Source: Paramacrobiotus metropolitanus
Taxonomy: Eukaryota > Tardigrada > Eutardigrada > Parachela > Macrobiotidae
Reading direction: 5' to 3'
DNA: 64,000 nucleotides
NCBI RefSeq assembly: GCF_019649055.1
Contig: NW_026570232.1
Coordinates: forward strand, 1,178,001-1,242,000
In this document: piece after piece, positions 21,097 through 63,897 of the stretch
Numbering within the stretch: position 1 is the first letter of the stretch
Layout: every line of letters starts with the position of its first letter
The notes under the pieces: model-generated
What the model was told of the DNA's origin: nothing
Seen by the model: only the letters and a program-made list of their open reading frames with translations
Databases searched by the model: none
Made by a program: the position numbers and the translations under genes

Positions 21097-24000
21097 ATGG
21101 AGGTTACGCGGAAGATATTTTGTTTTAGCACTGTTGGAAACTGTTTCCTCCTATTTTTCACAATTATTTTTCTCGTCAAACAAAGTGCAGGTAGAGGCTT
21201 TTAAACACTGATGTATATACAGTAAAAAGTATCTAAAATGGGAACGGTTAGAAAATCTATTTATTAGAGTTATAAGCGCAAGCTCTATATAATACAACAA
21301 ATTCCTGCATGCCTTTTCCAGCTGCCGTACGGTGTGCATCAACGGACAAAACCCCATACACTGGAGCTAACAGCTATTCTACGAATTGTAAGTCATAATT
21401 CTTAAGGAATCCCTGTATCTATCGAAAGGTTAGTTTTTTAAAAGCTTATTTTTTTTATAAGTGCGAATTACAGTTGTGGGCAAAACTTTCAAAATATATT
21501 TTTGCTTTAGGGTCCGGTGGTACGTTAGGTATTGTGTAAGAATGCGAGTGTAAGACTGAATGTGTAATCTACGAGGTAACAAGATTTGTTGCGGACTGGC
21601 TTCCTTAGTGTCTTACTCACTATCCAGGCCATTCTTTATGGCACGGTCTATCGACGCAACGATACTAACAATAAAATAATATTATTATTAATTTACGCCA
21701 TTACAAATGCTTAAATGTTTTTATGAAGGCGGAGACATGAAAGAAATAAAAAGAGCATTTTACAACTTTTGCGCACTGCCTTTCGCCACAAAAATTAAGC
21801 GAATTCCCATAAACTGGCTCTCGAAGTATTGCGTTGTCAGTTATCATTCTGTTTGAGCTGGTTCTGTAGCATTACTAACTGCTCATTAATTTTGTGAGTC
21901 GTGTACTTATGTATGTGCGCATGAATTCAATGTCATGAATTTTTAATCTGCATTAATGTAAACGATTTCAAAGCAAGATTCATCAAAACATTTCTTGATT
22001 ACACAATGTATGGTGCGTGTTGAATGTCACAACTGTTATTGATATTTCAATAGATACCGGCATCCAAAAGCAACCACAAAAACTGTAAGTCCATCGGCAC
22101 GAAATCGCACACATACAGGCATTAATAAGGTCAAAGATTTTTCTCCTAATGTCACACTCCAAATTCCAGTTCGGCCAACTACACAGCGTTCGCCGATGAG
22201 CCCACGCCGTATTCGGACCGGCTAACCTATCAAAACCGCTCCTATACACCGTATCGCAATGACTACTATCCCAATAACTATTACAACCGTTCGGTAAACT
22301 ATGACCGCGGAGACTACAACGACCGACGTCCCGACACCTACGATCGGTATAATGACGAGGAATATTACCGCAGTGAGGATTACCGGCGACCGAATCGGTA
22401 TTACAACTCCACTGGGTCAGGATATTATCCACGAAATTACACGGCGTCCCGGATGATCCACAATGATACGGGTTATAACTGGACGATGGGTTACGACGGG
22501 CGGGGGACGGATTATTCGAAGAAAAAGGGCTACAGAGCGGAACCGTACGATGATCGTCGGTATGACGGATATGCGGATAGGTACAGCGATGACCGCGATA
22601 ATTATGAGTCTGGACGAATGACCGGCGACCGATACCGGGATGACGACTACGGCCGAGATGACTACGACTCCACGTACAGGGGAAATTACCGTTATAATAG
22701 TTCAGGTGAATACTGTGCTTCACTTAAGAAGATGGCCGTCTTGCTAGCATTGATTACGTGCCGTGTACAAAAAATGAGCGATTATTTCAATCTGCGACAG
22801 TTTATTGCGCATATAAGAAACGCGCACACCGGTGCGCTGTACTTTATTATCAGGGTTTCATCATCCGGGGGACCGGGTACATATTTCACAAATGTTTATT
22901 TCTTCCAATAAAATGTAGGTCCTTACCGGTCTGACCGTTATCGGGACTACGACAACGATAATTACGGACGGTACAATGATGGACGTTACGCCAATGACCG
23001 TTATGATTATGGGCGTAATGATTCGTACGCGTTGGGACGAAATACTGCCGGCCGGGATTATGACCGATACGATGGCCGTGACCGCTATGGATACGATAAC
23101 CGGGATTCGTACGGCCGAAACGAACAACTGCGCGGACCGGAGTACGACCGGTATGGGAAAATTAACCCATACGGAGGATCCTATAATGGCGGTTATAATG
23201 GTTACGGACAGACATACAATAAACCGCAGGAAGCGTACGGATCCGGATATGACTGCCCCATCCAGACGAAGGAGACCAAGTCGTCACATGCCGACATTCC
23301 CACCACTTCCGCCAGTGCTATTGTCTCTATTCCCACGTAAGCTTCAGAATTTGTATAACAGCATACGCAACACAGTGCTTATCAAATTTTATAATTAAAC
23401 TTCCTTTATCCATCGTTTTCACCTGACTAATAAATAGTATTCTCACTATCGTTAATATGTTTGTATAACAGTTTGCTTATTTTAAAAATTTTTTAGAATT
23501 ACAGCTTGCATATTTTGAAAAACAGACTGCAGTTTCTGGTTAACAAAAACAAACAACTTTAGTCAAAGAAAAAGGTTATTAGTCGGAAATTAGGTTTTGC
23601 TGCTTGCGTTTGCTGTTCCTCAATAATTTATTTTGCTTTAGGGGTGACTTCATTCTGTATTGTTCGCAACATCCGGCAAAAACAATCCTGGCGTATCCGC
23701 TGTACTGCAGCGGTTATGGCGACGAGGGAATGGGCAAAGATGCCACACCAACACTTATCGACAATACATGCTTCGACATCCGGGTATAACCACATAAGCT
23801 TACGTTTTACGTTACCGTTACAGTTATATCCAGCCGGTGGCTTGTTTATAAAATGTAGAATAATAAACATCTAAAATAGGTTTTAGAACTTTAATGTGCG
23901 CGTTTGAAGTAAAATGGCGCAATAACTATACTTGCCAGTCATCTAATTAGTTTCCGTATAACTGCTTATAGGTGGTGGATGATCTAAACAATTTGGAAAA

Positions 24001-26625
24001 GCCTAACCATCTCATTATCGCTTTGACCAAAGCGGGTCATTCTGCTGCGTACCAAGTGGACTATTCGTCTAGCACCTTAAAACTCCTTCCGTGCCTTCAT
24101 GTTTTTGAGTACAAGTATTTGGTGGATTTTGAGGTAGTTTTGCGTTTCGCTTATAAGTACAAATAATTACGTAGCTTTTGATTTTGAAGTGTTTCGAAAT
24201 TGCTCGCTGTTGCAATTTTTAACCACATACAAGTACCACACGATGCTGTATACAGTACTTAATCAGTTAATTTACTGAGCTTGCCAGAGATGCTGCAAAC
24301 ATTACTGCAATCCTCAGAGTTAGATGTTACACTACACATCTGGTATTTGGCGTAAGCTGTAGATGAATGACCTTTTTGCAGTCAGTTCCCTTGGGACATG
24401 CCGGCACACTGCTGGCCTTCGCCAATAACAACGTGGAGCCGACAGCGGCTTATCACGAGTCCGTGCAGCCGTTGTACATTGCCAAGGACGGCAAAATCGC
24501 CCTGTGCGGATTCGCCGACATCCAGAACGTCCTGGATGTGACGGCGTGGAAGAAGAGCGTGGATTCCATCATCTTGGTGTATTCGCAGCGACGTGGCAAT
24601 ACACGCCGAACCCTGCTACACTTATTCGAGATCCGCTTCAAGGATGGCTACTGCGATGTGCGACCGTATAAGCACCAGAAGACCATTGGCGCGGCGGTCT
24701 ACGATGGACAGCGCAACACGCTGTGTGCCTACGAACCGTTCACCATTGACCAGTGCCTGTGTGGTAAAACTGCAAAAACTTGATATTAATTTTCGTGTTT
24801 GCGTTGCACGTACAAGTTTCTTTTTTTTTGCAACAGGAGTGGAGGATTTACAAATCCTTCGGGCGCCGCATTACCACAAAACTGTCCATCTGGGCGTGGC
24901 CTTGAGCAATAACGTTAAGTATGAGACGGATGGGGCGTGTCCAGTGGAAGAGCGTCTCCAGCCGGACAACCAGTATGATAAGTCGTTTTGCTGCTGTCCG
25001 CTGGCCAATCAGCGTTCGTTTATTATCGAGTATTCCGGGCAGTCGCGCAGTTTTGATTTTATGTCGGATGACGATAACGCGTTCCAGACTCTATACGCCG
25101 GTCCCGAATCGGTAAATTTTCTGATTAAAACTTCATATAAATGCAGTTGTGATTCATTTCCTCTTGCGGTCGCATGGTTACAGGCAACGGAAATCTCTCA
25201 GTTGCAAACGGAAAAATGCTGCCCGGTATTCCAAACCATAAGTCCAGTCGGCGAAACATCCCTTTACACATTGGAACAGAATCGTTATGGCGGCTGGCAG
25301 GTCTATCAGTTTATCAACCATGGATTACCGTCGTACGCCGAAAGTTCTTCCTTTGGATATTGTGACGACAACGATGTCATTGTCAGTTACACTTTGCACA
25401 GCTTTCAAGCAGGTACCTTTTTGAATCGTACATGCATTTTCAAAAATACATATTTGGAGCTATTAATTATTTATGTAAATCCCGTGTTGCAGACAATACG
25501 ATCTACCATATTCGGTGTAATTGGGATGGAAAATATAGCAACGATGCGTACAAAGAGAAGACCAATTACGTCGGACGAACAAGTTACACTGCGTACGTAC
25601 AGAGTCGGCACAGGTTTGCTTTTCTGCATTTTCATCTGTATTTGTGGAAGGATTATTGGCTCTACTTTTAAAGGAAAATTCCTATACAGTATTTTAGTGG
25701 TGCTTAGAATTAAACTGATTGCAAATTTCCGACGCCGTTGCTCATTATAATTTGCGTTTTACAAATGTTTATAATTTGTTTTATATGTTTTACCTTACCC
25801 CAAAATTGTTTTACATTTCCTGTAGAGCGCGTAACGTAATAAACGTTTATTCAAACATCATGCTCTGCACCGAGAAAGTTATGCGAGCAAGAGTTTAAGA
25901 AAACTGCATTTGTATGTTTTTAATTTCACAGTCCGTCCCCATATGCGCTAGCGCCGGCTAAGACTTATACGTCCAGCTACAACAACAGCAATTACAAAGC
26001 CCCGACCAGCAACACCCCCGCCGCCTATCCGACTCCCAGCTACACCGCCCCAGCACCGGCTCCCGTACCGGCACCGGCACCCTACGCCCAGCCGGCGCCC
26101 AGCTCCTATGCCGGCTCACCGGCACCGGCCGCCTACGCATATAACAGCCCCAATAGTTATGCCGCCGCGAAAGTATACTATAACGGATCCAACTCCTACA
26201 ACACCACGTACAACAACACGAACTATGCCAGTAAACCCAAATACGATTATTTGCGCGCCAACTACAGTAAAGATCAGCGTCCTGTTAATATTTACCTGAA
26301 TATGTCCGACAATCCGCTTTTTCATCGTTTAGCATCACAACAGTATCAGCGCCCGTATAACGGGACATACCGGCATGGATTCGGAAATGATCTGTACAAT
26401 GCGGATCCGTATGGGCATTACGGCAACTATTCCATGTCGCGGGCGACCTATGGGCCGCAGCTGTACAGCGGCGGATATGCCCAGCCGGGATACAATGTCT
26501 ATCAGCCGGCACCGTTAAGTTACGACATGGCGCAGTACGCTCCGTCGTCGCATACCGGCATCCGTTTCACGAATTCCACACGGGGCGGGTATTATTCGCC
26601 ATCGGCACGGACCAACGGCAGATAA
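21097..26625 (+). CDS. Large secreted protein, variable-tail family, member 1
   Basis: Twelve exons join in frame to give 1,049 residues: 21,097-21,190, 21,322-21,387, 22,054-22,084, 22,170-22,705, 22,919-23,336, 23,642-23,783, 23,972-24,133, 24,382-24,763, 24,837-25,111, 25,184-25,412, 25,493-25,613 and 25,932-26,625. Exon 1 is a signal peptide ending in phase 1. Residues about 60-380 are disordered and extremely rich in Tyr, Arg, Asp, Gly and Asn (for example RYRDYDNDNYGRYNDGRY), with almost no Lys at the centre. Residues about 382-790 form a Cys-containing core with motifs FILYCSQHPAKTILAYPLYC, LCGFADIQN, NTLCAYEPFTIDQCLCG, DKSFCCCP and FGYCDDNDVIVSY. The tail (about 819-1,049) is Ala/Pro/Tyr-rich (APAPAPVPAPAPYAQPAP). 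The next gene is its tandem paralogue with identical intron phases. No named domain is recognised. Extracellular structural or adhesive roles are inferred from composition. An in-frame ATG at 21,061 is an alternative start. Confidence 0.86.
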
Positions 26626-27809: not shown

Positions 27810-30800
27810 ATGCTGCATAAACAATCGCTACGTCCGGACTTCTTTAGTACTGTATTTATATTCGTTCAATTGGCATTTTATGCAGGTAAGTGACTTAAGT
27901 CTGATCATGCCGATGGAGTTACTAACTGCAAATAGCTTACTATTTTTGCCACTGCTAGTTCGCTACTAATGTTACAGTTTTTTGCATTTCATCGTCTGAT
28001 ATTGTACATATGTCCAAGCTTTTTTCAGTGCGCTTGGTACGTACTTGGTCAAATTATCGCAGTTTCGTTGCAGCTAGAGGATTTGTTGCGAATCCTTTGA
28101 GAGACGATGTATCCGAATCTGTGGTGCACCGACGCTTGCGACCTTATTATCGCAATGGTAACTGATTGTTTCTCACCAAACCGAAATCTGTACATAAATT
28201 ACAGAATATCTACTAAATACAGGCTTTACATAATTAGATAATAAACAACAGCATTTACATTAATTATTCACTGGCTTTTAAATTTTCAGGTTCGTTTCCT
28301 CTGACTCGAACGTAAGTGCACTGTTCATATACTTTGAAAGTCAGCACATCTTCGGCAAAATTCAAACAACTGTTCTGCTTGTTGATTTTTAGGAGTTGTT
28401 AAGGTTATAATGACGTAATTTTAACGCTATTGTTGATGAAAAATCACTTTGACTTTACTAGTTTACACTTCAAACGGCTATAAAACAACGGTGAACTTCT
28501 AATAAACTGAAATATCGCGCGATACGTGCAGATATACTGAACTTGCTACGTATACGTACGCAGTATGAAGAAAGAACCACTTTTAGTAACAAATTATGTA
28601 CTTGCTGTGGATAAGTAAGATAACGCGAACGCTATGCCATTTTTAACACTGGAAACTGATTGTTTATAGTTTGTTTGCGGACCATCCGGAACGCCGGCGT
28701 TTTCCGAGGCAGCTGGAAGCGGATGCCTACGCTCGCCAAGGGTCACGTTCGGATGGGTCTGACCAGCAGCAGCAGAAGCGGCCTGATCGTCTGTCATACA
28801 GCAATGGCACCGAATTCGATGACGACTACGATCGCAGCGAACTAGAGCAGCGTCGTAGTTATGCGGCTAGGAAAACTCAGGAACGCCGACTACGTAATCA
28901 GTATGCAGGAGGGGATTACGATTATTCTAGGTACAGAAAGCTCGAAGTTACTTACTACCATTGCTTACTATAGAAAACCAGTGATGTGTACACTCTTTAC
29001 AGTTTTCGTGGATACGGGAATTCTCGTTCAGCAATTCCTATTTCTTGTTATATTATAATGATTATACTTTAAGTCTGTAACTAACAGTTTTGTTGCAGAG
29101 AATCTGAAAGCGAATACTTTCTGCAGCAGGGCCCCTATCCGCATGAAGACAAAGAATGTAGATACGTCACGCGTCAAACGAAGTCGTCCCTCAACAGCCT
29201 CCCCATCACATCCGGCAGTGCTGTGGTTTCGCTTCCCATGTACGTCAAGTGTACCATACGTCCTAGGATTTTTGACGGCGATAACGATTTTGGTTGTTTT
29301 TTTAACGTTTAAACTTGTATCATTTTAAGTAGTATTACGCGTATGCACTTTTGTTACACTGATGGCCTTTGCCCAATAAAGTATTTTAGTGTACCATATA
29401 TACTACAACAATTATCAACTGAATATTTGATTTCACTTTTTACGATTGTCGACATTTTAAATACACCTGACCCGAAATTCCCAATATGTATATGCTCGAT
29501 ATTCATTTAATAAGCCGTATGCGACAATTGATAATTGTGTTACGCTTGTTGACAAGGGGGAGCTTTGTACTGTACTGTACGCAAAATCCAAACGGCAAAA
29601 TCCTGACATTTCCACTCTACTGCAATGAAGAGGCAAATAACGGCCATGCTGCCGGGACCGGCGGTATTGTCACTGATATCGAGCACCCATGCCACCAGCT
29701 GAAGGTTAGTGTAAGACTTACATACTTTGTAAGAATACGGCTGTACAATTTTGTAAGCATTTTTAACCAGAAGTTGTAATTCCATAAATATAATAAATAT
29801 AATCGCCTCAGTCTTGCCCCGGTTTGTCAGTGAACATATTTGTACGTATGCTGAAAATACAAGTCGAGGGTGGCGCAACGAAATGTTTTAAGCCAAAAAA
29901 ATGTCAACCCGAAAACGAATAAGAAACAAAATGTACTCACTCTTATAATTTTTTATAAAACGGAACTTTTAAATGGGATTATTTTATATCTATACGTTAC
30001 ATCATACTGCTAAAAAGCCTTACCTTATTAGTTACACTTTCATCCGTTCGTTTATCAACTGTGCCGCATGTTTCGCATGTTACCAGGTGGTAGAAGATCG
30101 GAACAACCTACAGAATCCTGCGCATTTTGTCATACCCCTAACAAAAGGCTATTACACAAGACCATATCGAGTGGATTACGACACTGGCGGTTTTACGTTA
30201 TTTCCGGCTCTGGAAGCATTCTATTTCAAATACCTGACTGATGTCGAGGTCAGTATACAACTTGTTCTGCAGCAGCGCGTATGTGTAATGACTATAATCA
30301 ACTGCACGCGAATTTTCGTAATGAAAACAGCAATATAAAGTCCATTACAAGTATTATTTTCGATAGACAGTATTTTTTGGCGGCGCGGGGACCGTCTTGC
30401 TTTTCGCGAACGATAATCAAGAAGCCGGTGCGCCCTTTGCGGATACTCTGGCTCCCATCTATTTAGTAAAACATGGGGAGATACGGTTGTGCGGGTTCAC
30501 GGATATACAGAACACCCGAAAGGTCACCGCTTGGAAACGGCCAGATAAAACAAGCTCCATGATCGTGGCCTATCTACAACAACGCAGCGGCACCAGGCGA
30601 TCATTGTTGCACTTTTTCGAAATTCGCCTCCACAGAGGCCATTGCGTCAGCAGGCACTATGAATACCAGCAAACACTGGGAGCAGCTGAGTATCGAGGAG
30701 GGCGGAATACGCAGTGCGCTTACGAACCGTTCACCGTGGATCATTGTCTGTGCGGTATGAACCAGAAACCTTAATGCATTTAAATTAAGGAACGATGAAT

Positions 30801-33484
30801 GGTAATTAACCCGTATATTACTCACAGTTTTATAGATAATAGTATTAACGGCTAGAGTAGGCTTCACAAACAGCACTTCAATATTCTCCATTCAAGATTT
30901 CCGGTTATCCCGAAGGATACCTGCAGAGTATATGAATTATGGAAGCAGTGATGATTTTTGCTATTTTTGCTGTTGTTTAGACTGCGTGATCGATAAAACA
31001 AGAGTAACGTTATAGTCCTGAATTATATCTCATTATATTTTGCAGGAGCTCAAGATATCAAGTTCGTGTCTTCAAAAGGCTACCAAACATCACACTTAGT
31101 AATTGGTTTGTCATTGCGCGCTGAAAAGGAGAATGACGCTTGCCCTGTATCAGAGCGAATTATGCCGGAAAATGCCTTTGACAAATCATTCTGCTGCTGC
31201 CCTCATGCTAACCAATATTCTTTCCTTTTGGATTATTCCCATGAATCCCGAAAGTTTGGCAAATCTGGCCGGCATGGAGTATTAGATTTGCGAAGTCTCC
31301 AGGGAGACAGTGCGGCTGTAAGTGTCAAAGATGATCTCGGAAATACAGTACTTATGTGCTTAGAAATAAGAGTACTGCATAAGAAGATACACGTTGTGAT
31401 ATGGGGCCACACTGCATGCATACACATTACACACGTATATGAGAGTATTTTACTAGAGGCAATTTATTAGCAGTACTGTCAGTACATAATTGCCTGCCAT
31501 GCAGACAATTTTGTTTTTTCGTCATGCATCATTTTTTGAATGTACAGAGTATATTAATTACATTAAATACCTGAGTAGTAAACTTGCAAGCATATTCCGT
31601 ACTTAATTAGGTTATGTACAAGTTTAGCCGTCTGACTGGTGAGTGTGCGATCGACTGCAGTATAATCGCTTTACAGGTCACGGAGATCAGAGAGATAAAA
31701 ACCGAGAGCTGTTGCAATATCTTCCAAACGAGTAGCCCTTCCGGCAGGACGGAATTATATTCCATTGAGCCGGACGACGATGGCTTCCCGCAGTTGTTTC
31801 AGTTTATTGATCATGGACTTCCGCCTTATGCTCATAGCTCATCATTAGGTTACTGCGACACCAACGATGTTATTGTCAGCTATGATCTTCACGCCTTTCA
31901 GTCAGGTAAATCAATGAAATACAGCTGCAGCTACGTATACTGGTAAATTTGCAAAAGTATTATGACCAGTTACGCATTCTACAAATATGTAGTAACAACA
32001 AGAGATTAATAAAAAATGGACTGCTAGATGAAGCATCGTAATGTACAAGATTACAAGGGTATATCTATATGCGTTGTGAATTACAGGTCAAAACCTTATT
32101 AAAAATTTTGGTGCATGACTAATTATTATTTAATTGTAGATAGTAATTATTATTTAATTGTAATAATTACTATCTACAATGTCGACATACGTTATACAGT
32201 TTTTGGAATTTAGGTGATGCATCAACTAAGTTTATCTATTTACAGCTTATGATTTGTGTTACTGTTGTAGTTTAAACTCTGTAAATCTCATTAAATTCGG
32301 ACAGATAACACCATATTCCACATCAAATGCAGCAAAGATACTCCTTTCCATCCTTCCAGCACGAGGCATTCCCCGAATATGTCCTTGGCGGAACACCGAA
32401 GCCAGTCAAAGTAATGCGTGGCAGTTTTTAGTCTCTGGGACTGGTTACATACTGCATACAATGCACATGTCCTTACAGATAAATAATCATTTTCAGCTTC
32501 TTAAAATAGCTTAAAACAATTCGTGGTTGCTAATTTTTTGAAATAAAACAAATTTGAGCACTGCAGAATATGAGCAAGAATTATCATACATATTGCTCGG
32601 GATTTGCATCTAATATAACTTGTAAACGTTAGTGTATCCGCTAATTTAATTTCCTTACTCTACGGTAACGAAGAATCGCTGAAAGGATAACGCATTGCTC
32701 GTGGCTCTTGTGTGGAGCCACGCTATGTTTGTTTGTTTTGTTTTTTTTATATTACCTAATAAAAAGTATCTTAAAACTGGTTTGGGTATAAAAGCAAATT
32801 TGTTTCATTCAGTTATATGCCAACGCCTTCTGAGATGTTAAGGCGTGTTTTCTTCCTCCCTTATACTATTTTGTTGACTACGTTAAATGCATTTTTACTA
32901 GGTGGCTGGATTACCGTTCGGCGTACTACAGTCAACAACCGTACAACCGTTCCACCCTGAACGCCCATCCCAAAGCCGGGTCCGTGTACAGTCCACTACC
33001 TCATGCTCCCACGCGTTATCAATCCTACAGATTCCGTAATTTACCATCGGAACCCCGATGGTCCTCGTCCAGTGCCGACCACGGCAGACTGTCGGCCATC
33101 CATCCGGATTCAGATGACTACTACAGCCGCAACATGACCGGCATCGGCAGCAGCCGACGGAAACCCCGCGATTATCCCTACCCGGCACCGCCGAATCCGC
33201 GCTATATGCGACCACCTTCAGAGCCACGGAAGAGATTTTCCTCTTATCCGCCGGGTATGCCTCTAGCTCACTTCAATCCTAATCCTTACCGGACAACTGC
33301 AAAAAGTCCTACCATTCGTGTCAACAGTACAACGGATTTAAACATTTCGCCCATTCCCACGTACAGTCTTTATATATTCACCGGGAAGAATGATACCGAC
33401 AGCCGGCCTTACCGACCACCTTATCTTGTACCAAATGGTCAGCACACGATTCACCCCGGGATACGATACAACGAAACTGCATGA
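27810..33484 (+). CDS. Large secreted protein, variable-tail family, member 2
   Basis: Twelve exons join in frame to give 823 residues: 27,810-27,885, 28,074-28,157, 28,290-28,311, 28,670-28,930, 29,099-29,239, 29,557-29,704, 30,087-30,248, 30,367-30,754, 31,046-31,317, 31,677-31,905, 32,305-32,410 and 32,902-33,484. Every intron phase equals that of member 1, and exons 7 (162 bases) and 10 (229 bases) have identical lengths in both. Exon 1 is a signal peptide. The N-terminal segment (residues about 30-190) is Arg/Gln/Asp-rich and much shorter than in member 1. The core (about 195-600) matches member 1 throughout: FVLYCTQNPNGKILTFPLYC, LCGFTDIQN, NTQCAYEPFTVDHCLCG, DKSFCCCP, LGYCDTNDVIVSYDLHAFQ. 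The tail (about 630-823) is Arg/Tyr/Pro/Ser-rich and unlike that of member 1. Poly(A) signals lie at 33,694 and 33,957. Extracellular; function unknown. Confidence 0.86.
32133..32180. repeat. Perfect 20-bp inverted repeat (hairpin)
   Basis: Arms 32,133-32,152 and 32,161-32,180 are exact reverse complements around an 8-base loop, inside intron 10 of the variable-tail gene. The sequence aattattatttaattgta occurs twice head to tail here (from about 32,121 and 32,145), so the hairpin is joined to a short direct duplication. Confidence 0.85.
32700..32722. repeat. 8-bp GC-rich stem-loop
   Basis: CGTGGCTC and GAGCCACG form a perfect stem around a 7-base loop in intron 11 of the variable-tail gene, followed by a long T-rich run. 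It may simply be chance structure. It does not match the histone 3' stem-loop. Confidence 0.4.
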
Positions 33485-35712: not shown

Positions 35713-35719
35713 TATAAAA
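35713..35719 (+). promoter_or_regulatory. TATA box of Tyr/Pro repeat gene
   Basis: TATAAAA in the context ggctataaaatgattgg. A non-coding first exon would start about 30 bases downstream and end at 35,857 before a GTAAGT donor. The acceptor at 35,965-35,966 lies just before the ATG at 35,981. Confidence 0.6.
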
Positions 35720-35980
35720 TGATTGGAACGGCCGCACAGTTTGGTATCACACCTTTCGGTTCTGGATTACAGCTGAACAAGTTCTGCTTACTTCCTGCAC
35801 TGTGCCTTTGTAATTAGCGATTACCTTACGGACGGAGTATCACTTATACAGAACCACGTAAGTCATTACGCTTTTATTTTTTATCAGATGCATAACGACT
35901 ACTGAGTAGAGTAACATTACATCAGTATTACTTGTATTTGTATACACATCTTATGTACTGTTGCAGTTAATTTTTCCAAA

Positions 35981-48308: not shown

Positions 48309-48396
48309 TCGAATAGGTGGCATTTCACGTGATCCTACAGGTTCCTTCCCAATTTTCATCCGAGGAAAAAGACAGAAAATAACACAAAAAAGCTTT

Positions 48397-50638: not shown

Positions 50639-50843
50639 TAAACAAAACATATAATTCATGCTTAAATGAAATTCACTTTAAAACAACCTTTTTTCCTCGC
50701 TTGGACAGCTTGCAGACTGCTCAATAAATCTAGAACTTGCTCTCTGCAGCCTTTAGCCTACTCGATTGTGCACTCTAGCCGTACATCTGGCATAGAATAC
50801 TCCATATACACAGCAGTGACCTTTACACTCGGTCGCTCTTTGC

Positions 50844-52028: not shown

Positions 52029-52206
52029 ACGACGTTGAAATTTTGGAAACTAACTTAACTGAGAAAACCGCTGTTTTTAATAATAAGATTTTGTCAGATC
52101 CGGTTAACCAACAGACTGTGTCTCTTCGACAGCCGAAACATCCGGCTCCTGTTGAAAATATCCGTGTGCGATGCTGTAATGTTAGAAGCGTAAAAAGCAA
52201 ACGCGA

Positions 52207-52218
52207 AGAAGTTAAATT
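52207..52218 (+). repeat. Target-site duplication, left copy
   Basis: AGAAGTTAAATT, repeated exactly at 55,690-55,701, brackets the minus-strand element. Removing the element and one copy leaves the APE endonuclease reading frame continuous. Confidence 0.88.
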
Positions 52219-55200
52219 TCAGTTCGAAATGTATTTATCATGCTTTCTTCACTCATTTATAGAAATTTTCAATATCCTTCAAAAATCAAATAATACAAAC
52301 ACAGACAAAAAAGAAATGCAGTTTTCACATGCTATAACAAGAAAATTTCCTCTAACTTCTCCTGATCCGGTATTGTGCCCATAACGCACATAGCGTTTCC
52401 TCTTTGAATCTGTATGGAGATCCGCTGCCGGAAAAATTCTTTCGCGCGTGGTTGCCCGGTAGTGGTCGCGATGAGCTGTCCGGTTTTATCGACCAGCATC
52501 TTAGCTCCGTCGCCCAAAGGTCCGTATGTTTCAAAGGCAGCGGCAACAAAATTGTACCTTGGCTGAAGCCACGCATGTTTTGCGAGCTTTTTTGCTTCGG
52601 CTAGTTGCGCTGCGGCACCGACATTGACGGCTGTACGGTCGAGATATGAAGTTGCCAGAGTGTCCACACAGGTTACGTCTATTGCGAGTGGTTTACCACG
52701 TTCCCAGGGACAAGCGTAACTACATCCGGTCTTTTGTTACCTACTAAGGCCAATCCTTTCGGCTCCACTCTGGCAGGGAAACCACCCGTCGTTAACGCGC
52801 GAGCGAACTCCTTGCTGATGCCATCATGTCTGGGTAGTCGTCCGGCTGATCGTTTGCACCGCAGTCCATGTCTCCCGAACTCGTCTACCCATTCGCCGCA
52901 TTTACATTCATGGGGAGTTACAATAGGAGCACCTAAACGTAGAGCGACGCTGGTCTGAAAATCGATATTTTCCAGCAGATTACCTAGGCAAGCAGCCGGC
53001 AATGCGTGAATCCAATAACCCGATTCTGGTGTTGACACCGCCTTCAAGTGTGCGACTTCTGTGGCAGAGACACGGAGTGCTGAAAGGTCAGAAAGTGCAC
53101 GCAAGGACGCAGGAGTGTCCCAGGCTTTTTGGATGCCGTGGAGGGGTTCAGCTGGCACATCATTCAAGCCGGTAAGCAACTTCCAAGCCAAAGTTGCGGA
53201 AGTTGTGTCGGTCGGTGGTAGAAAAGGGCATAATTTAGAGATAAGCGAGCGCACAGAGGAAGCCGATGCCAAGTAGGCGGAGGGAGCTAGCTCCTCGGTG
53301 CGTCGAATCCCTAAACCACCCAGTCGAACTGGTAACGATGTCTGCAACCACGTTGGATGATCCATTCTGACGTTGGTGATCTTCTCCACAGCGGCGCGGA
53401 AAGTTTGGTCCAGGGTGTATAATTCATCCGAAAACTGCCACGCCAGAGAGGTGCGAAGTAAGTGGACGATTTTTGGAACACCAAGGCAGTTTTTCAACAA
53501 AAATAGTGCTTGGTGTTTCGGGATTAGCACTAGTCGTTCACACATGTTCTTCACTTCCTCCACTCTTTTTTTAATCACAGGTGCTACTCCGGTCGGCAAC
53601 AGAGGTGATCCCAGGAGGCTCAGCTTCTCTTTAGACACCACCGACAAACTGGGGAATTTCGTCTGGAAAATAGCAGCTGTGGATTCCCGTTGAACATCTG
53701 ATCCACCGCAGATAAAAAGTTCACATTTTGAAAGGTTCACAGACAAACCGATTTTTTCCGCTTCCGCAATGAGGAGCTCAAAATTGCAAAGCACTTCTTG
53801 TGGGCGGCCTCCTAGTGTCCCGTCATCCATGAACCACGCGTTTAGTTGCGTGATTAGCATGTCCACGATATATTGTACAACCAGACAAAACAAAATTGGC
53901 CCTAGCGGATCTCCTTGCTGTACGCCGGACTGCGAAGAAATAATTATATCGCCAAGGAACAGTGAAGAGTGGTAGCCATAGCACAGCTTTACGAACGGAT
54001 AATAATCCGGTATGATATCAGCGGCAATCTTCAGAATTTTCTCACGCGACACAGAGTTGAAGGCGTTTGCAAAGTCGATTTTCAGCAGCACTTTTACTTC
54101 GTCGCTGTAGCGTAAAAGAAAGTCCCTTGACGCATGGATGACACCTTCTACGCCTTTCTTTGTGCCGCAGCCTAGTTGATGAGGATGGAAGATAGGTGTA
54201 GTAATCGGACGGATTCGTGAGTCGACCAGTTTAGCGGCAAGTCTCCTGTAGGTATTGCCAACTGCGATTGGACGTAAGCCGCCATCCTTTTTCCGGAGTG
54301 CGATGAGACGAGCGCCGCAAAGGACAGGCCTAATGTCTTCAGGGATATTGCCAGTCAAAATGTGGTTTAGCAGGTCCGTGATTGCATCGCACAATTCTTT
54401 TGACGTATCATCTGCCCTCCCGCCGAGTAAATCCAGAAGGTGCTGAGGACGCAACCCGTCTGGTCCTCCGGCGCTACCCTTCGGCATGGATTCCAGTGAT
54501 CTGAAGACCTCATCTGGGGTGAGTGGGACAAACGAACCATTTGGGTCTTCGGGCAAATCTGGAATAGGGGACTCGGGATGTTTGCTCTGCATTGCTTCAA
54601 CAACTTCAGAGGTTATTTCCGCTACGGAATCAGACGAAAAAAGTGTGCGTACAGCGCCACTAATATTAAAATCGTCAATCTGTATGCCAACTCGCCGAGC
54701 CAGGTCTTCGTCGAGCGTAGCGCGTCGAGATTTAGGTTTCGTGGTCGTTTCTGAGTCCTCCAGTTTTCCCTCTTCAAACTAAGCGACACGATTCTTGATG
54801 TGAGTAGTCAGGGAAATTTTACGGGCTTTTTTCGAATCAGCAGGGAGAGACAGTACTGCAGATGGTGCTGACAGCAGGCGCAGCCATGAAGACGAGGAGT
54901 TTTCCGTGGTAGCACGTCGCATCAACTTTGTCAGCAGTACAGCAACAGATGGCCTGGCTGCTTTTGGTATCCTTCGCATAATTCTCCGCTTAGTCCAGGA
55001 CGCTACCACGGCGGAGATTGGCGTGCCAGCTTGCGGGTCGGGGAAAAGAGGAGCAGAGGTAGTACTATGAGCAGGAGGAGCGCCAGGAGCCGATGAGGGA
55101 TTAACTGGCACAAGTTCGAGGTCCCTGCTCAGGCTTCTTGGACAGACGGGTCTATGCGTCCCCCATCTTCGCAGCTCTTTTCCGCATCCCGAACACGTAA

Positions 55201-55689
55201 ACAGAGCAGATGACATCGTAGAATATTTCGGTGGCTACAAAACAATGCGAGGAACCAGACCCAAGTTCGTCGAAAAATCGGTGTTTGCCACTGAAGAAAC
55301 GACCTACCCGGATACCTGAGGTTCACACAAAGTGTTCCCCTCAAGTAATTTCGGTAGATGCCCAACAGTCATCCATTGCCCAGCGGGGATAGTCAAAGAA
55401 ATAGATGAAGATTAGGTTCGTAGGTAAATTGCAAAATAATGGTGAGAAATAGAAATAGAACAGCTATTGATTATCATGCTATTGATTATGCAAATAAAAG
55501 GCACTGTTACCAAATAGCAGATGGGAAAGAGTTGTTACTGAGAAGAACAATTGTTACCTGGGAAAAAAAGTAACCGACGCTCAAGAAAGGCGTAAGCCGG
55601 TGTAACTCCACTTCTAACGGGTTTATTGTGTCCAGCTTTATAGTTTATCGTTCGTGGACGCTCTCGTGTGCAAGCCACATTTGTGGCCA
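52219..55689 (-). mobile_element. RLE-type non-LTR retrotransposon inserted in the LINE
   Basis: A 3,471-base element in opposite orientation to its host element, bounded by 12-bp target duplications. Its 5' end is at 55,689 and its 3' end at 52,219, with a 5' UTR of about 470 bases, one long ORF and a 3' UTR of about 113 bases without a poly(A) or simple-repeat tail. The single ORF, the N-terminal zinc finger and the C-terminal restriction-like endonuclease place it with early-branching LINEs (R2-like architecture). The 12-bp duplication in an unrelated transposon shows that this copy did not go into rDNA. Confidence 0.88.
52332..55216 (-). pseudogene. RT/restriction-like endonuclease protein, one stop and one frameshift
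   Basis: Reads from the ATG at 55,216 to the stop at 52,332 and encodes about 960 residues. The N-terminus has a CCHC finger (CSGCGKELRRWGTHRPVC). The frame meets one TAG at 54,779-54,781 and continues in the same frame into the reverse transcriptase: GSAGGPDGLRPQHLLDLLGG, LLKIDFANAFNSVSRE, SGVQQGDPLGPILFC and the active-site segment AWFMDDGTLGG (Met where many LINEs have Ala). The C-terminus has a Cys/His knuckle (CKCGEWVDEFGRHGLRC) and the PD-(D/E)XK-type nuclease segment RPDVVTLVP. A missing base near 52,709 shifts the frame, and the other frame gives IDVTCVDTLATSYL and the remaining 110 or so residues. Only these two lesions are visible, so the insertion looks young. Similar proteins are known to me from cnidarian, sponge and echinoderm genomes, but I cannot name the clade. 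Confidence 0.85.
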
Positions 55690-55701
55690 CAGAAGTTAAA
55701 T
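55690..55701 (+). repeat. Target-site duplication, right copy
   Basis: AGAAGTTAAATT, identical to 52,207-52,218. Confidence 0.88.
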
Positions 55702-56459
55702 TGTTCTCTTCAGTCAGTGATGTGACCGTTCTTACGGAGACATACGACAGGCCTTTCATGACAGATTCCGATTTCGCTGACCTAGATAATTTCAACGTAT
55801 TTCGAAAAGCCAGGTCTGATGGTCGTGGCGGTGTGGCTATTGTCATTCGTAACACATTACGCGCGATTCCCAGGCCTGAGCTGGAAACTCCCTTACTTGA
55901 GATTCTTTGTGTACAGTCTCTGTCTCTTGATCGAATTTTTATTGCATTTTACGCACCACCCGATAAAAGTATTCATGCAATCCCTGCGCTAATTGAACAT
56001 CTGCGTTCTCGTTTCTCCCCTCATTTGTTAACAAAATGCATAATCATGGGAGATTTCAATCGGCCTGACATAAACTGGTCAGATAAAACTGCAATTAAGC
56101 CAGCAAGCCGTGAGTTGCTACACGCCGTTGAAGAATTTGGGTTAAGACAGATAATTGATTTTCCTACGAGAGAAATGAACTGCCTCGATCTGTGTTTGTT
56201 AAGCGCAAATTCACTTTTTGAACCGGCAGTTCCAATCTGTCCGCCTTCTACTAAAAATGATCACATCGGTTTTGAATTTTCTTTGAAATTAAAGAAATAT
56301 CGCAGAAAATTTCGGATAAAAAAGCGGTGGAAAATTGAAAAAAGTAAAGTTGACCAGTTCCTAGCTGTGCTGAACGCTGTAGATTGGGTTAATCTGCTTG
56401 GCTGCCTAAACGCTAACAAACGTGCGGATAAATTTGAAGATGTTTTTCTCGACACAGCG

Positions 56460-56515
56460 AAAACTTTTTTCGTTTATGTAAATGTTAAATTGCGTAAAGG
56501 ATCGGTACAATATCC
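56460..56515 (+). repeat. 56-bp direct repeat, copy 1
   Basis: Matches 56,558-56,613 with one mismatch. Together with the inverted arm at 56,514-56,535 it forms a fold-back duplication that breaks the LINE frame between endonuclease and reverse transcriptase. Confidence 0.88.
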
Positions 56516-56535
56516 GATCCTTTACGCAATTTAAC
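56484..56535. repeat. Perfect 22-bp inverted repeat (hairpin)
   Basis: Arms 56,484-56,505 and 56,514-56,535 are exact reverse complements around the 8-base loop tacaatat. It sits between the two 56-bp direct repeats. Confidence 0.9.
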
Positions 56536-56557
56536 AATTTTTTTCGTTTATGAATTT

Positions 56558-56613
56558 AAAACTTTTTTCGTTTATGAAAATGTTAAATTGCGTAAAGGAT
56601 CGGTACAATATCC
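56558..56613 (+). repeat. 56-bp direct repeat, copy 2
   Basis: Second copy of 56,460-56,515. The LINE reading frame continues from this copy (RKGSVQYPKNIKKIINSRD). Confidence 0.88.
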
Positions 56614-56932
56614 CAAAAATATCAAGAAGATAATCAATTCTCGAGATCGTGCTTTCCGTTTGTACCGGCAATTTAGATCAAGTTATTTTAAATTTAAATG
56701 GAAAAATATTTCAAAAAAATGTGACACCTTTGTGCGGAAGTTTGGAAAACAAAAGCTTTCAAATATATCCACAGCTTTTCGAAATAATCCATCGAAGTTC
56801 TGGCGGTATATGAAATCAACCAATGATCGAATCGGCATGCCACCCCTCAAGGTGGCCGATGGCACATCCGTAACTACCGATCGTGAGAAAGCAGCCGTAC
56901 TTAACACAGTGTATCGTAACTCTCAGTCTATG

Positions 56933-57094
56933 GGTGGGTCTCATATTCAAAGCGAATCTCGTTATGGTACGGTTGCTCAACCGCACGAGGTGGTTGTTTG
57001 CAGTGGCCACGCCTACAGATACGGTACGCGAAGCCACCTCGCGAGGTGGAGTTGCTGTATCGCAACTAGATTCGCTTTGAATGTGAGACCCACC
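56933..57094. mobile_element. MITE-like 162-bp terminal inverted repeat element
   Basis: The 27-base ends 56,933-56,959 and 57,068-57,094 are inverted repeats with one mismatch, starting GGTGGGTCTCA. The flanks are CTATG on both sides (56,928-56,932 and 57,095-57,099). Because of the bases shared at the junction, the duplication could also be read as TAT with ends starting GGG. Removing the element and one flank copy restores the LINE reverse transcriptase frame exactly, which proves insertion. The interior is also partly palindromic (cgaggtgg and ccacctcgcgaggtgg) and encodes nothing, so it depends on a transposase elsewhere. Confidence 0.87.
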
Positions 57095-59231
57095 CTATGT
57101 GTGATGGCCACTGTGCTGGCAGCAGCCTTGATCTGACCTGTGACAACAATGATAATTGGGAAATTTCTGAATTATTAATTTTTGAACAGCTTGCAAAAAT
57201 ATCCGTTACAACATCGAGCGGTAAATTTGAAATAACTAATAAACTTTTAAAAATTGCTGCTTTGTCTATCACTAAGCCGCTTAAATTAGTTTTTAATGCC
57301 GCTATCAATGAAGGGGTATTTCCATCGAGATGGAAGCATTCTTTTATAACTCCGATACCGAAAATCTCAGCAGATCACAGATTGCCCGACAGTTATCGAC
57401 CAGTTTCAATGCTAAATCCTGTATCCAAAATTTTTGAACGTTGTCTTGATCAGTTGATTCGTGAACACTTGAGCAGAAACCATATGCTTTTCGATCACCA
57501 ATTCGCTTACCGGCACAAAAGGTCAACCGAACTACAGCTTTTTCTTTTCGTAAAATTTGTGAATGATTTTATCAGTAACGGCACTGCTGTAGACGCCGTG
57601 TTTTTGGACTGCTCAAAGGCTTTTGATAAGCTGTCTCATGAATCCATTAACGATGCGTTAATTCAGATGTATCTTCCCAGTCAAATCGTGCATTTGATTT
57701 CTGATTATTTAAAAAATCGAACGCAACGTGTGACAGTCGAAAATGAAATTTCGGATCCGCTACCGGTAAACAGTGGTGTACCTCAAGGTTCTGTACTGGG
57801 CCCTTTGTTGTTTATTTTCGTGTTGAATTTCATCCTTTTTGCACTGAAAAACGGAAGCGCCGCTTTCGTTTTTGCTGATGATATTGTTGTGTTTCGTCCG
57901 GTTACAACCACAGCGGACACCCAGTTACTGCAGGAAGACCTAGCGCATCTTGGTGAATGGCTTATTGACAAACAGCTCATCCTTAACGCGGCAAAGTCCG
58001 TCCACGTTCGTTTCTCAAAAAAGAAATCTCCTGATTCTTCATGTCAGTACAGTATTAACAATGTTCCTGTACCAAAGTCTGATTACGTAAAGCACTTGGG
58101 AATATTTGTTGATCGAAAACTGAACTTCAAAATCAACAGCGAAAATGTAGCAAAAAAATGCAACAAAAGAGTCAACTACATTAACCACGTTTTTCGCTAC
58201 ACTGACTACGGTGCCCGCATACGGCTCTTTGAAGCACTTGTCCTTTTAGTTATCGATTACTGCTGCGTCATCATGAAGCCGTCACTAAAACAGTCGAAAA
58301 ATGCCATCGAAAGTTGTCAGAGAAGGTTTTCTAAAACTTTGCGACTCGGAAACGATGTCTTGAATTACGAAAAACGTCTAAAAGAACTTGAATGGGACGA
58401 TCTGATTACGCGCCGTCTGAAAAAAGCACTGCTGTTTATGTACAAATTAGTGTTTCGGGTTGTTCCGATGGGTGATCTAATTGTATCTCCCTGAAATTCT
58501 CTGCTGCTGTGCTTGAGTCTGTTGCAGGAAATACCAGAATATCAGAACGCCTCCTGAATCACCCGTGCCCGATTGAGCCGTCCCCAACAACCGTTTGTGG
58601 AATAACAGTGACCACTGCCCATGACTCGTATCTCAACAGCCTTGTGTCCGTCTGGAATGAACTTCCCCTGATGCCCAACGCCTACGTCACGTTGAATACC
58701 TTTTCCGAAGCTTTAAAGACAGTAAACTGGAACGATTTACCATCAGCTAAAGCTTTCAGAACAAGTGACTAGCATAATTACGTCTATTCTTTGGTGTTCA
58801 ATGATAAAGAAGTAAATTTTAATTAGTGAAGTATCACGGTTGCGACTCAGTTGAAACTGTACAAAAGGCGATTACGTGCGTAAGTGTCCTTGCTTTCCCT
58901 TTTTCCCACGATTTCTTTTTGAAAACATTTTGAAAATTCGTAATTGTCAATGTGGGTTTTGGTTTTATGCATCGACCCCAGCGCGATCGTCTCCCTTCCT
59001 TTTTCCACGATAACACCAACTGATCGCAACCTTTGAGACTCTCTGTACTGCCTTTTCAAGTGTTTTGCTGTTTATTATAAAACAGTGTGTGTTGTTGTCA
59101 TCGTAATCACTTCATGTTTTCGTGTTTCACTTCATGATGCTGTTGTAATGTTTTGTGTGTTTTTCCTTCCGCTGTCTCGCTGTCTGAAGCTTAGAGGGGG
59201 CACTCGCTCCGTGCAAGGACAATAAACTTCC

Positions 59232-59249
59232 ATTATTATTATTATTTTA
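59232..59249 (+). repeat. ATT simple-repeat tail of the LINE
   Basis: A short attattatt run at the end of about 450 bases of 3' UTR. Short repeats of this type end many Jockey/CR1/I-like LINEs. Confidence 0.55.
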
Positions 59250-59506
59250 TTAAACAAGAAATAAGGTAACAAACAAGTACTGTAGTTCAATAAATATTTT
59301 CTACCGTTACATAACACATGACAGCAGATGTATACCGGAAGTATCCAACAAGATCGCTAAAAAGTAACAGGCATATTCTATAATAACACCACAATAACAG
59401 CCATTTTTTCGGCTGTGCGTATTCGCAAAACGTGATATACATTCTACATTCGGTGCACATCGGTTGATTTCTGAGTCACAGCTCCGCAACAGTGAGAGTT
59501 AACTGC

Positions 59507-62500
59507 TTATGTCGAGGAATCAATAATCACGGGTGTAGTTGATATTAGATCCGTCGACGCTGTGACATCGCTTACGGACGGTGGCACCGTGCTGTCCATG
59601 GTGGTATCGGGTGCGCTGGTATGGTCGGTGGTCAGCGTTGACGTTGTAACTGGAATAGCGTCCGTTGCGTCAGTTGCCGATTCGATGCTGATCACAGAGG
59701 TTGTGTCGCTGGGTAGTGACGATTCGGATGGCATTGTCCACAGGATAGTCGTGGCATTGGTTTCTGAAAATACCGGCATAGTAAGCTCTGTGTACGCCTT
59801 GACCTTTTCGCGGTTTTGCTTATACAACAAAAAATTGCAGATCAGTTAATGTACCAGGTGGAGGAGTGGTGACAGTGATGTTAACTTCGATTATCCATGG
59901 CGGCTGTTGGACGCTGGTGTAATTGGGTTGTTGTACCATTCTGTGTGGTCCGTGGTGGATCATATTAGGAGGGGGTATAGCATTTGGTAACCTACGGTCC
60001 AACATTGTTGATAGCCTTTTTGTGCTTTTATGCTTTTGTGATGTGCACGCGAAATATGAAGCGCTATGAGGTCGTGATTATAGTAGAACGAACCCGCGTT
60101 GTGGCTGCTCCCAGGGTCTGGCTACAGGTTGTACGTGTTGGGCGTGCTGCATCGGTGGCGGTGCTTGGAATCTGGGGTCAGGGTTCCACCATGGTGATGG
60201 GGGCATCGCGGGTGATGGCATATGGAACTGGGGTGGCACCGCTCCAGATCTATAACGTGGCAATGTTTTAATCCAAGCGCTCTCGTACAGAAATTATATT
60301 TTATGTATTGCTATTTATTAATTGATTGTATCTCTGGTTGTGCAATTAGGTTTACGTTCATAGATTTAATAGTGCCCGGAAAGGCAAGCTTACGGAGGCT
60401 GTTCAGTATTTTGGGGTGCGTTAGGAATGTTCGCATTCGGAGGCATTGGATACACTGTAGGTACCGGCGAAAATACTGCTACCGGCGGAAACGTGATGTA
60501 TCCAGCGAAAGCGCTTCCTGGAGGAACTTGCTGCGGTCCAGGCCCTCTAAAATTAAATTCAGCGTACGAGTACTACATGATTATTTAACGAAGTACAATA
60601 TGTACAGCATACTCGTGTTTGCGACAATAATTTCTGATTTTCTGTGCTTTAAAATTTTTGAGTAGTATCTGAATTTATGCTATAAAACAAAATGGAAGTA
60701 GTATAATCGTTAGCAGCAACCATACTGTACTGTGCAACAGTAAATTAATAACAATCTATGTGCGTTCCAACAAAAATTATTATATTATAATATAATATTT
60801 TTACATAATATTTATACATTTACCAGATATGTAATATTCGAATTAAGCAGACCAATTGTAATTAGATAAACTTACAAGGATATCCTACAGCTAAGAGCAT
60901 CGAGTAACCGGTCCGAGTTGCTTTCTCTTTATGAAGTTAACACTTATTGGCTTTGTTACTGAATTTAGTGGTAAAATTTACCCGAAGCCACCAGGGTACA
61001 GCGGTCCATTAGGACCCATAAAAACCGTCATTGGCTGTCCAGATCCCATCATCTGGTATCCCATGCCTTGCATCCAGTTGTTCATATTAGGCTGGCTGAG
61101 TCCTTCCGGTACCGGTGCCTGTCCGAAAACGGGCTGCGGCGCCGACAGCTCGGGACCAGGCCGCGGCATGCCGGACCCTTGTCCATGTCCATCGTTGGGG
61201 AAACTGGGATGCAGCAGCTGCGGCTCTTCCACGTGGCGATCGATCAAAACATCTTCGTAGCGGATTTGGGGGGCAATCAGCAATGAACTGTCAGTAGCAT
61301 TGGACGTGGTATTGACGAGGTCACTGTGCAGAAACGCTGCTGGAAGATCCTCCATATGGGGCATTGCCCGAGGAGAATCACGATCAGGTCGTCGGAGATT
61401 GAACCGGCGATTGGGATGGAGATGGTTGGAATTATCGACTACTTCATCGGCCGGTTCGGTCAGGTTGTTGGAGCCGGTCAGATAGACATTGCCAGTGTAT
61501 TGACCTTTAGATGCATAATGAACCGTGTGTTTATCAAAACCATATCATAACTATAATTCCTAATTGTGTGGATTCTACTGTACATACTGAACGTATAGTT
61601 CGATGCCTTTATCAGCTGATTTTTCGCACATGATATCCAGTCAATGACCACTGAAACGGGGACGTTGTTAGGTGGGAATTTCTGTTGTGGTGCAAGGGTA
61701 CTAACCTGATCCTGACGAGGTTACGTGGGTAATGTAAGCGTCGCGGTTGGCCGATTGGACGGCGCTGATTGAGGCTTGGTTGTTAACACGGACCGTTCCG
61801 ACGAGGCTGTTGGCTGCAATAATTTGACGACTTATTTTTTATACAAATTATTATACCAGGAAAATATATTTACGGAGAGTTTCAGCCAGGACATCGGAGA
61901 TATGAACGGTCGACGGCTCGGACGTCTTTTGACAAAGGAAGAATTGTTCGGAGATTCGTGAAATTTTGGATACCTGAAAATCAAATACTTAATCAATCCT
62001 AATTGTACCTATACCGTACCTGTAACAGGAAGACGTTCGTTCCTTCATCTATACGCGAATTTGGATGTCCAAATGTCCCTTTACCAAACTTACCTTATTA
62101 CTGGCGCAAAGCACATGGTACTAAAGTCATTACGTAAATTTAATTATTCAGCGATTACTTAATTTTGAATAAATTGTTTTTAAAGCTTATAATTACTGTA
62201 TAGTCTGTACCCCACTCGTTGCCGGCAGTTCGTCGGCTACTCTGACGAATTTCTGCGTATTGGCATCCCAGAGCAGGTACAATGTGTTGGCTTTCTCGGA
62301 GTTCGCCTTGAGTATCCCATTTACAACTTCTGGACAATGGTGATTGGATACCATCAATGCGATCAGATTATCCGCACCAGCATTTGTAATGACTTCCAGC
62401 GACTGAACGCCTTAAAATTACAAGCATACTTCTATCTAAATATGCGCTCTATGGTAGTACATGTCACATGACATTGTGTGTGCGCTATATAAGCGTTTTA

Positions 62501-63897
62501 TCTAGTAAATATTCGTTTCATACACACTATGAGAAAATCCGAAAATGTAAATGCTGATCCCGAACAACGCATCCCATAATATATATATGGATAAGTAACT
62601 ACAGTGCATACAATGATGCGTAAAAGTTAAGAAACACATACGTATTTGTAACTAAATTTTTTAACTCGTTTTATATTGCATACCACACAGTGCTGCACGG
62701 CCAAAAGAAATTTCCTCCACCGGCACTAATGCGCACTCGCCGCTGCCGCCCTGGACAATCTGATGTAGCGCAATCCGATAAGCGAACGCGTTTTCCGGTA
62801 TCAAGGACGCCAACACCACATAGTGCGCTCCGTTGGCCGTCCAGGCAGCCACATACTCCGCCGGGCCGGAATTGGCCGTGGTGCACTGGGTGATGGTGTT
62901 GGCTTTCTGGTCGATGATGGACACACTGGGATAACCGCACTGGCGGTCACCTTCCCGGCACTGACGCCCACTGCTGGTCACTAAAACGGTCGTGTGGGCG
63001 TATTGCGCGACGGCCATATCCAGTGCGCCGGCAGCGCCGATTACGCGCAGGGCGTGGAAGTTGACCAGGGTGTGGTCTTTGACGGACACTTCGTATAAAA
63101 TGGGGCTGCGGTTCATGGCGAAGATCACCACGTACTGCTTCGTGCCCACAGCGAAAGCCTGTATAATGTATAAATACCGTCAGCTAGCCGTTTAAATTAT
63201 GAAATTATTTTTTTAAAATTATGTTCATACCTCAAAATTGGTCACAACACCATCCGCAAGGATAACGAACTGTGGCTGAGCGTTTTGTAGATCGTCCATG
63301 GCTCCGTTCACGCACAGAATCTGGCTTTTCCGTTTGGTTGATACCGGCTTGGAGTAGCACAGTACACTATTAAGATGATGCAGTTGTTATAATGATGCAG
63401 ATATTATACAGTTCGGTAAATAGAAGCTTGATTAATGATACAGGTGACTTTCTGTTTCACTTACTAGTTGTTCGTCAACTGTGGTAGAGCCATTAGTGCG
63501 GAGGATGAAGCGCTGGTGCCATGGCGGTGAAATACCCGTTCCACCGCCACACACGCCGGGTTACACTTGGCCTGCTCCCGCGTACAGTCTGCAATTGTAA
63601 GCGAATCTTCACCGGCAAAATCATTAAAACTCGTACATAACACAACAATGTGTCGCGAGTACAAGCTAGGGGCTTTATTTATGTTTACACTGCGACATAG
63701 CAGTCAGTCATTCCACTACAGCCATTATTGCACAATCAAGAATTAAAAACAACAACCAAAATCACAATTATCAACAACTTTATTCTTTAGCGCGGTACAA
63801 TACCTGTAGCTGTCGATGGAAAAATAAAATATGAAAAACATAAGACTGCAGTTGCGCACAGTGCCGGCCACGGGTCACGCATTTTGGCAGTTCGCAT
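59507..63897 (-). CDS. Large secreted protein, variable-tail family, member 3 (divergent)
   Basis: Twelve exons on the minus strand join in frame to 828 residues: 63,897-63,804, 63,588-63,465, 63,366-63,231, 63,158-62,684, 62,410-62,211, 61,973-61,874, 61,813-61,706, 61,504-60,982, 60,546-60,394, 60,249-60,094, 59,991-59,855 and 59,787-59,507. Exon 1 is a signal peptide ending near STAT, with a phase-1 intron. The core (about 73-412) aligns by eye with members 1 and 2: YVLCYSKP with FILYCSQHP; KQYVVIFAMNRSPILYEV with NHLIIALTKAGHSAAYQV; ALCGVQSLEVI with CLCGVEDLQIL; VSKISRIS with VTEIREIK. Introns at the matching points have the same phases (2, 0, 1, 0, 1). The tail is Pro/Met/Gln-rich, then Ser/Thr-rich (TTSTLTTDHTSAPDTT). 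The weakest joint is exon 5 to 6, where reading on gives a stop at 62,193. Two genes are therefore the alternative. Function unknown. Confidence 0.75.

Follow-up and report, generated by a model that had tools for sequence, protein, structure and literature searches.

A clustered tardigrade gene family that may encode secreted proteins with one folded head and divergent low-complexity tails

Our analysis identifies, on contig NW_026570232.1 of the tardigrade Paramacrobiotus metropolitanus, an array of old duplicates that we read, with a probability of roughly 0.57, as encoding secreted modular coat, mucus or adhesive proteins, in which a folded head is joined to a disordered-looking tail. Three of the genes, here called A, B and C, lie in the window (the whole stretch of DNA that was analysed, 64,000 nucleotides), and by sequence comparison the family appears to comprise at least eight genes and probably nine. 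This reading is built on the gene structures of A, B and C, the homology of eight cores, the introns that these cores share, their clustering, the composition of the tails and a short motif that recurs in them.

Results

Gene structures of A, B and C

The genes A, B and C were rebuilt by hand from their splice sites, using the sequence only, in a window with a GC content of 42.9%. Gene A (21,097-26,625, forward strand) comprises 12 exons in which every intron is GT-AG and the frame closes, and it encodes 1,049 residues, the same length that the earlier note had given. Its signal-peptide-like first exon (21,097-21,190), which ends in phase 1, is followed by a Y/R/D-rich N-tail in exons 2-5 (21,322-23,253; Y 17.8%, D 12.9%, R 12.3%), by a core that is probably a beta-propeller (23,254-25,613, the 3' part of exon 5 together with exons 6-11) and by an A/P/Y-rich C-tail that occupies one exon (25,932-26,625) and contains the motif GIRFTNST. 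Gene B (27,810-33,484, also forward) has the same layout, with a core at 29,157-31,905 and an R/Y/P-rich C-tail (32,902-33,484) that carries GIRYNETA at its end. Exons 1-10 and the last exon (32,902-33,484) of gene B are clear, but exon 11 (from 32,246) cannot be given a single donor, as four of them keep the frame open and lead to proteins of 806, 860, 862 or 877 residues. Gene C lies on the reverse strand (63,897-59,507) and encodes 849 residues in 13 exons. Its core, of the subfamily that also holds D, E and H, is encoded by exons 2-8 (61,588-63,588) and is completed by the first codons of exon 9; exons 9-13 (59,507-61,504) encode a P-rich and then S/T-rich tail with the motif QIRYEDV.

The first exons of all three genes are hydrophobic and end in phase 1. 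What they have in common is this position and phase, so that the shared signal-peptide exon described earlier stands as a structural feature but not as a shared sequence. The C-termini of A, B and C look polar when judged by eye.

Core homology and extent of the family

The cores of A and B are 50% identical, whereas those of A and C share only 16-19% of their residues, and a profile comparison (hhalign) of C against A+B gives no match (probability 0.6%). C is thus unlinkable to A and B directly, and the Cys-containing core that the earlier note had assigned to all three genes exceeded, as far as C is concerned, what three sequences can show. C is tied to A and B solely through introns and through five further core copies outside the window, which came from an exon-by-exon search of the genome (533 contigs, 169.8 Mb) with queries C, A, G, D and H. 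All five lie on the minus strand of contig NW_026570232.1: F near 1,115.8 kb, D at 1,135.4 kb, E at 1,148.7 kb, H at 1,164.1 kb and G at 1,170.1 kb. The family is therefore not the three-member one first described, but one of at least eight genes. The core exons of D-H were joined with donor phases fixed to those of A-C; when the phase was left free, the best join had the same phase, except in D, where two joins scored almost equally (13.3 vs 13.2), and at the first join in H, in which an exon is skipped.

With these copies the chain of comparisons closes, and D-H bridge C to A and B. A+B matches F+G at 97.4% (E 1.4e-11), F+G matches C+D+E+H at 95.6% (E 1.3e-8) and C matches D+E+H at 98.2% (E 4.4e-14); C against F+G reaches 69.0% (E 4.4e-5) and A+B against C+D+E+H only 25.5% (E 7.5e-4), compared with 0.1-0.4% for three column-shuffled decoys. 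Across the family the heads have diverged to between 14 and 50% identity.

A probable ninth member, I, is very divergent and lies at 1,248,925-1,249,476 of contig NW_026570232.1 on the minus strand. It emerged (E 6e-5) when 4,413 open frames, taken from the window and from neighbouring stretches of the contig, were scanned locally with an HMM, and it shows the PLCG exon ending; a Y/P/G-rich frame follows it on the same strand. A genome search with the frame of member I matched only itself. All family matches at E <0.01 fall on contig NW_026570232.1, with the cores within 1,115-1,250 kb; cores A-H span about 127 kb, about 135 kb with I, and the array including tails about 155 kb. Genome searches with C, A, G, D, H and I gave no credible copy on other contigs, and an E 0.6 match on another contig was taken as noise. 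Member I itself, however, escaped the searches made with the other cores, so weak matches are missed and the restriction to one contig is provisional. As regards a prokaryotic origin, a search with two short peptide patterns of A+B found no encoded relative in genome contigs.

Shared introns and codon constraint

In the alignment of the eight cores, a phase-0 intron following exon 6 of A is present in all eight genes at column 102, or at 109 for A and B, where a gap shifts it, and a phase-1 intron at column 301 is likewise common to the eight. The next phase-0 intron, at columns 424-426, is found in seven of them, while G reads through. A phase-2 intron precedes these in the six genes in which it could be placed, at columns 35-50 and in positions that do not exactly coincide. 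An extra intron at column 166 is restricted to A and B, the other six genes being without it. The matching of core intron phases reported earlier thus extends to agreement in position for three introns but not for the phase-2 one.

Over 422 aligned codons, A and B are identical at 61, 72 and 34% of first, second and third positions, respectively, which indicates that their core exons are under protein-level constraint. At four-fold sites (n=87) the identity is 36%.

The core domain and its probable fold

Cysteine accounts for 99 of the 3,293 core residues as against 16 of the 13,118 tail residues sampled, and 10 of these 16 belong to the far D tail, within its open frames. None of the eight cores gave a Pfam match over the cut-off (the scan covered a part of each core in D-H), so no profile in that scan placed the core in a known family. 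The sub-threshold matches are of unrelated kinds and were taken as chance: UbiA (0.0064, in C), DUF4142 (0.22, B), U5 snRNA-binding (0.25, G), GH43 (0.12, H) and FAZ1 (0.25, F). A sequence search of the PDB with A+B found nothing up to E 1, the single match with C (E 0.85) was attributed to chance, and so were four matches of a seven-core profile (E 0.23-0.8, antibody VHH and FBXL5). The absence of a named domain, as first suggested for this core, is borne out by these searches.

A structure model of the A core, predicted with B as the only other alignment row, is nearly all-beta, with 12 successive strands over residues 71-225, a mean pLDDT of 43.0 and a pTM of 0.37. Foldseek places Elongator chains (Elp2, a propeller protein) in the first two rows for this model; the LGI1 EPTP domain is third, and LGI1 chains occupy ranks 3, 5 and 9-11. 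In VIA-align, the LGI1 EPTP domain matches over 193 residues with Z 12.2 and an rmsd of 6.7, tied with Ski8 (Z 12.2). Judging by their titles, the 50 matches listed there are propeller-containing chains; the region aligned is mainly residues 1-261, so that the C-terminal half of the core is barely covered. The best structural matches are therefore propellers, a fold that the earlier note had not proposed, and a beta-propeller is the probable fold of the core, although a model of such low confidence could mislead.

A self-comparison of the eight-core profile with hhalign detected no internal repeat (probability 0.3-0.4%); in many propellers sequence repeats are not detectable. The EPTP profile PF03736 matched none of the scanned core sequences and nothing in the genome, though control genomes were equally silent. 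Membership of the EPTP group, which the modelled fold suggests, is treated here as a lead only.

Composition, motif and sequons of the tails

The compositions of the tails are as described in the earlier note, and its picture of tails that look disordered and differ greatly around a conserved core holds in the models of A, B and C; for D-H the tails are assigned by position only. Tail sets of D-H were defined as the same-strand open frames downstream of the core, with their exons provisional, and position and strand weakly support the assignment of each distant frame to its gene. Downstream of the F core lies an open frame of 5,778 codons (contig NW_026570232.1, 1,112,467-1,095,134, minus strand) with 24% A, 22% T, 14% D, 11% S and 5.9% Pro; it has 34.6% S+T over residues 400-5,400, is largely made of 93-nt repeats with a 31-residue period, and is mucin-like. 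If this frame belongs to F, as its position may suggest, the tails would range from about 190 to nearly 6,000 residues. The open frames of E and H (995 and 1,634 codons) are full of related motifs. In the D tail the motif recurs in successive short open frames whose similarity extends over about 30 residues and points to exon duplication, and further on RYN-x-S/T becomes dense (23 sites). The best splice joins from core to tail score 5.8 in F, 8.8 in E, where the joined reading contains two stops, and 12.6, 2.8, 15.9, 12.2 and 11.9 in H.

The tails had been called unrelated; a short Arg-Tyr/Phe motif, however, is common to seven of the eight genes. Enumeration of five-residue class patterns gave as the best pattern hydrophobic, Arg/Lys, aromatic, acidic/Asn, acidic/Asn (p 4.3e-9, 6 genes), which none of 60 shuffled tail sets equalled (best 5.7e-7). 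The more explicit form [ILVM]R[YF][NSTDE][DEN] occurs 18 times, in A, B, C, D, E, F and H, against a mean of 0.30 and a maximum of 4 in 2,000 shuffles; this form was chosen after the tails had been viewed, and the enumeration is the less biased test. The motif is absent from the part of G that was read; the copies in A and B are close to the C-terminal end. A narrower motif tried earlier, found only in E (9), H (13) and A (1), was replaced by the one that enumeration supports. Searched genome-wide as a DNA pattern, the motif gave 8 matches, two of them in the cluster (F and B), against 8 in a reversed control, and thus is not enriched elsewhere at the sensitivity of such a pattern. The one good E-value from a tail query against the genome was for its own place; two extra matches, at 0.067 and 0.109, are in the H frame.

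N-glycosylation sequons exceed all 400 shuffles in five of 12 tail sets, with 10 in the A N-tail (shuffle mean 4.3), 9 in D (1.5), 40 in E (13.8), 58 in H (10.6) and 46 in the far D tail (10.8). In the other seven sets they do not, and the frame beside F lies below the mean (20 vs 31.4). Over all tails, an Asn that follows an aromatic residue is part of a sequon in 83 of 105 cases, as against 128 of 384 after other residues, a strong association; for A, B and C alone it does not hold, the corresponding figures being 12/23 and 20/67 (P 0.077).

Neighbouring genes

Upstream of A, two secreted-looking paralogues, T1 (13,257-14,756) and T2 (16,486-17,912; exon 1 placed by eye), lie on the forward strand. 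Each pairs a Y/P-rich N-part with a mostly beta domain, 84% identical between the two, which has no Pfam match over the cut-off, a model pLDDT of 48 and what we assume to be a tectonin-like nature; matches to these genes occur on eight contigs. At 36,216-36,974 (forward) there is a secreted-looking frame rich in PAY and SYS, similar to frames at 1,252-1,262 kb of the contig. The presence of these other Y/P-rich, secreted-looking genes fits a structural locus.

The surroundings also hold genes of other kinds. A neuropeptide precursor-like gene at about 18,849-19,737 (forward), recognised by eye from a KR site and an HPGGPG end across a splice, presumably resembles DH31. On the reverse strand, the frame at 39,457-40,773 resembles what we take to be the haem-NO-binding part of a guanylate cyclase. 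Between B and C (50,820-58,494) lie frames that we regard as a LINE-like reverse transcriptase and endonuclease, and between D and E, on the opposite strand (1,139.5-1,142.3 kb of the contig), are two tandem frames that resemble seven-transmembrane receptors.

Discussion

Taken together, these features may define a family in which each protein would consist of a signal peptide, a head that bears Cys, is almost entirely beta and probably forms a propeller, and a long tail almost devoid of Cys. Extracellular building materials are known to use such a plan, in which a folded, Cys-bearing head carries a long flexible tail rich in Tyr or glycans. By this analogy, the head, possibly stabilised by disulphides, would form a folded node, binding to partner molecules or to further heads and providing specific contacts in an extracellular coat, mucus or adhesive, while the tail would provide cohesion or hydration. 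The Tyr-rich tails of A, B and D could serve as sticky, cross-linkable spacers, and the tails rich in sequons (D, E and H) or in Thr/Ser (F) as hydrated, glycosylated ones. Such tails would grow by repeats, perhaps also by exon duplication, with the head being kept. A role in matrix, egg shell or adhesion would fit the genomic setting, which suits cuticle, egg shell, mucus and glue alike.

A bolder form of this proposal, which we put forward only tentatively, is that the array of about 155 kb encodes giant propeller-headed secreted glycoproteins of the tardigrade coat or mucus, with one ancient head and tails of independent chemistry: Tyr-rich, Pro-rich, made of sequon repeats or mucin-like, and up to nearly 6,000 residues long. 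The short Arg-Tyr motif may in that case be an assembly or processing site.

The structural matches lend themselves to another reading, namely that these are secreted ligands or lectins whose propeller recognises a receptor or a glycan, as in the pairing of LGI1 EPTP with ADAM22, the tails being mere spacers. The high rank of LGI1 chains for the A model, in Foldseek as in VIA-align, speaks for it, and the divergence of the heads would suit diversified recognition. The same model, however, reaches a pLDDT of just 43, the EPTP profile finds nothing in the genome, though the control genomes are silent too, and to our knowledge very long tails would be unusual for ligands; we therefore consider this reading unlikely. 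That the proteins are immune or other arms-race effectors in a fast-evolving array appears far more improbable still. The tails look structural, no effector or defence domain emerged from the Pfam scans, and the A and B cores are constrained at codon positions 1 and 2, against which stand the clustering of the genes, their divergence and the lack of copies on other contigs.

A different objection concerns the tails of D-H, which could belong to separate low-complexity genes beside the core genes, so that only a short protein of the A/B/C type would be real. In favour of such an arrangement are the low scores of splice joins in F, E and H, the two stops in the E join and the other Y/P-rich, secreted-looking genes of the region. 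Yet A and C close with their tails in one model, B does so with any of its four donors, the tail frames come after the core frames on the same strand, and the motif links the tails of seven genes; we hold this arrangement to be rather improbable.

In the titles and abstracts of the open-licence literature, we found no description of this family, which is not proof of novelty, and no account of the proteins that compose the cuticle, egg shell or mucus of tardigrades. If the family does encode modular secreted structural or mucus proteins, its general kind would be known but the combination unusual, with a head of no named family, eight or more divergent copies in one array, and motif-linked tails that run from about 190 to possibly nearly 6,000 residues. 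Because its head can be recognised, the cluster would supply direct candidates for proteins of the tardigrade cuticle, egg shell and mucus. It also presents one folded module carrying tails of different chemistry, with growth by repeats visible in the genes.

Several known systems resemble the family in part. Like the LGI/EPTP (EAR) propeller proteins, its members would be secreted and have a beta head, and the LGI1 EPTP domain is tied for the best match to the low-confidence A model. Unlike them, the family has no match to the EPTP profile, shows 4% identity in the structural alignment and carries long low-complexity tails; Pfam detected no LRR in the N-terminal parts of B and C, and that of A is Y/R/D-rich. 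The tectonin and fish-egg lectin propellers are approached by the neighbours T1 and T2, in which a Y/P-rich part is coupled to a beta domain whose match to fishelectin is weak (rank 15, Z 7.6, rmsd 12.2), but these two have no detectable homology to the family core (hhalign probability 0.1%). Secreted mucins find a parallel in the long Thr/Ser-rich tandem repeats, almost without Cys, of the frame beside F, provided that it belongs to that gene. In contrast to mucins, the head has no Pfam match, the frame is low in Pro (5.9%) and high in Ala and Asp, the other members are Tyr-, Pro- or sequon-rich, and Ser/Thr tandem repeats were not seen in A and B. Finally, the chorion, cuticle and glue clusters of insects are clustered structural secretory genes, and the array shares with them its divergent low-complexity secreted proteins; it differs in having a large conserved folded head, of no named family, and tails of very unequal length.
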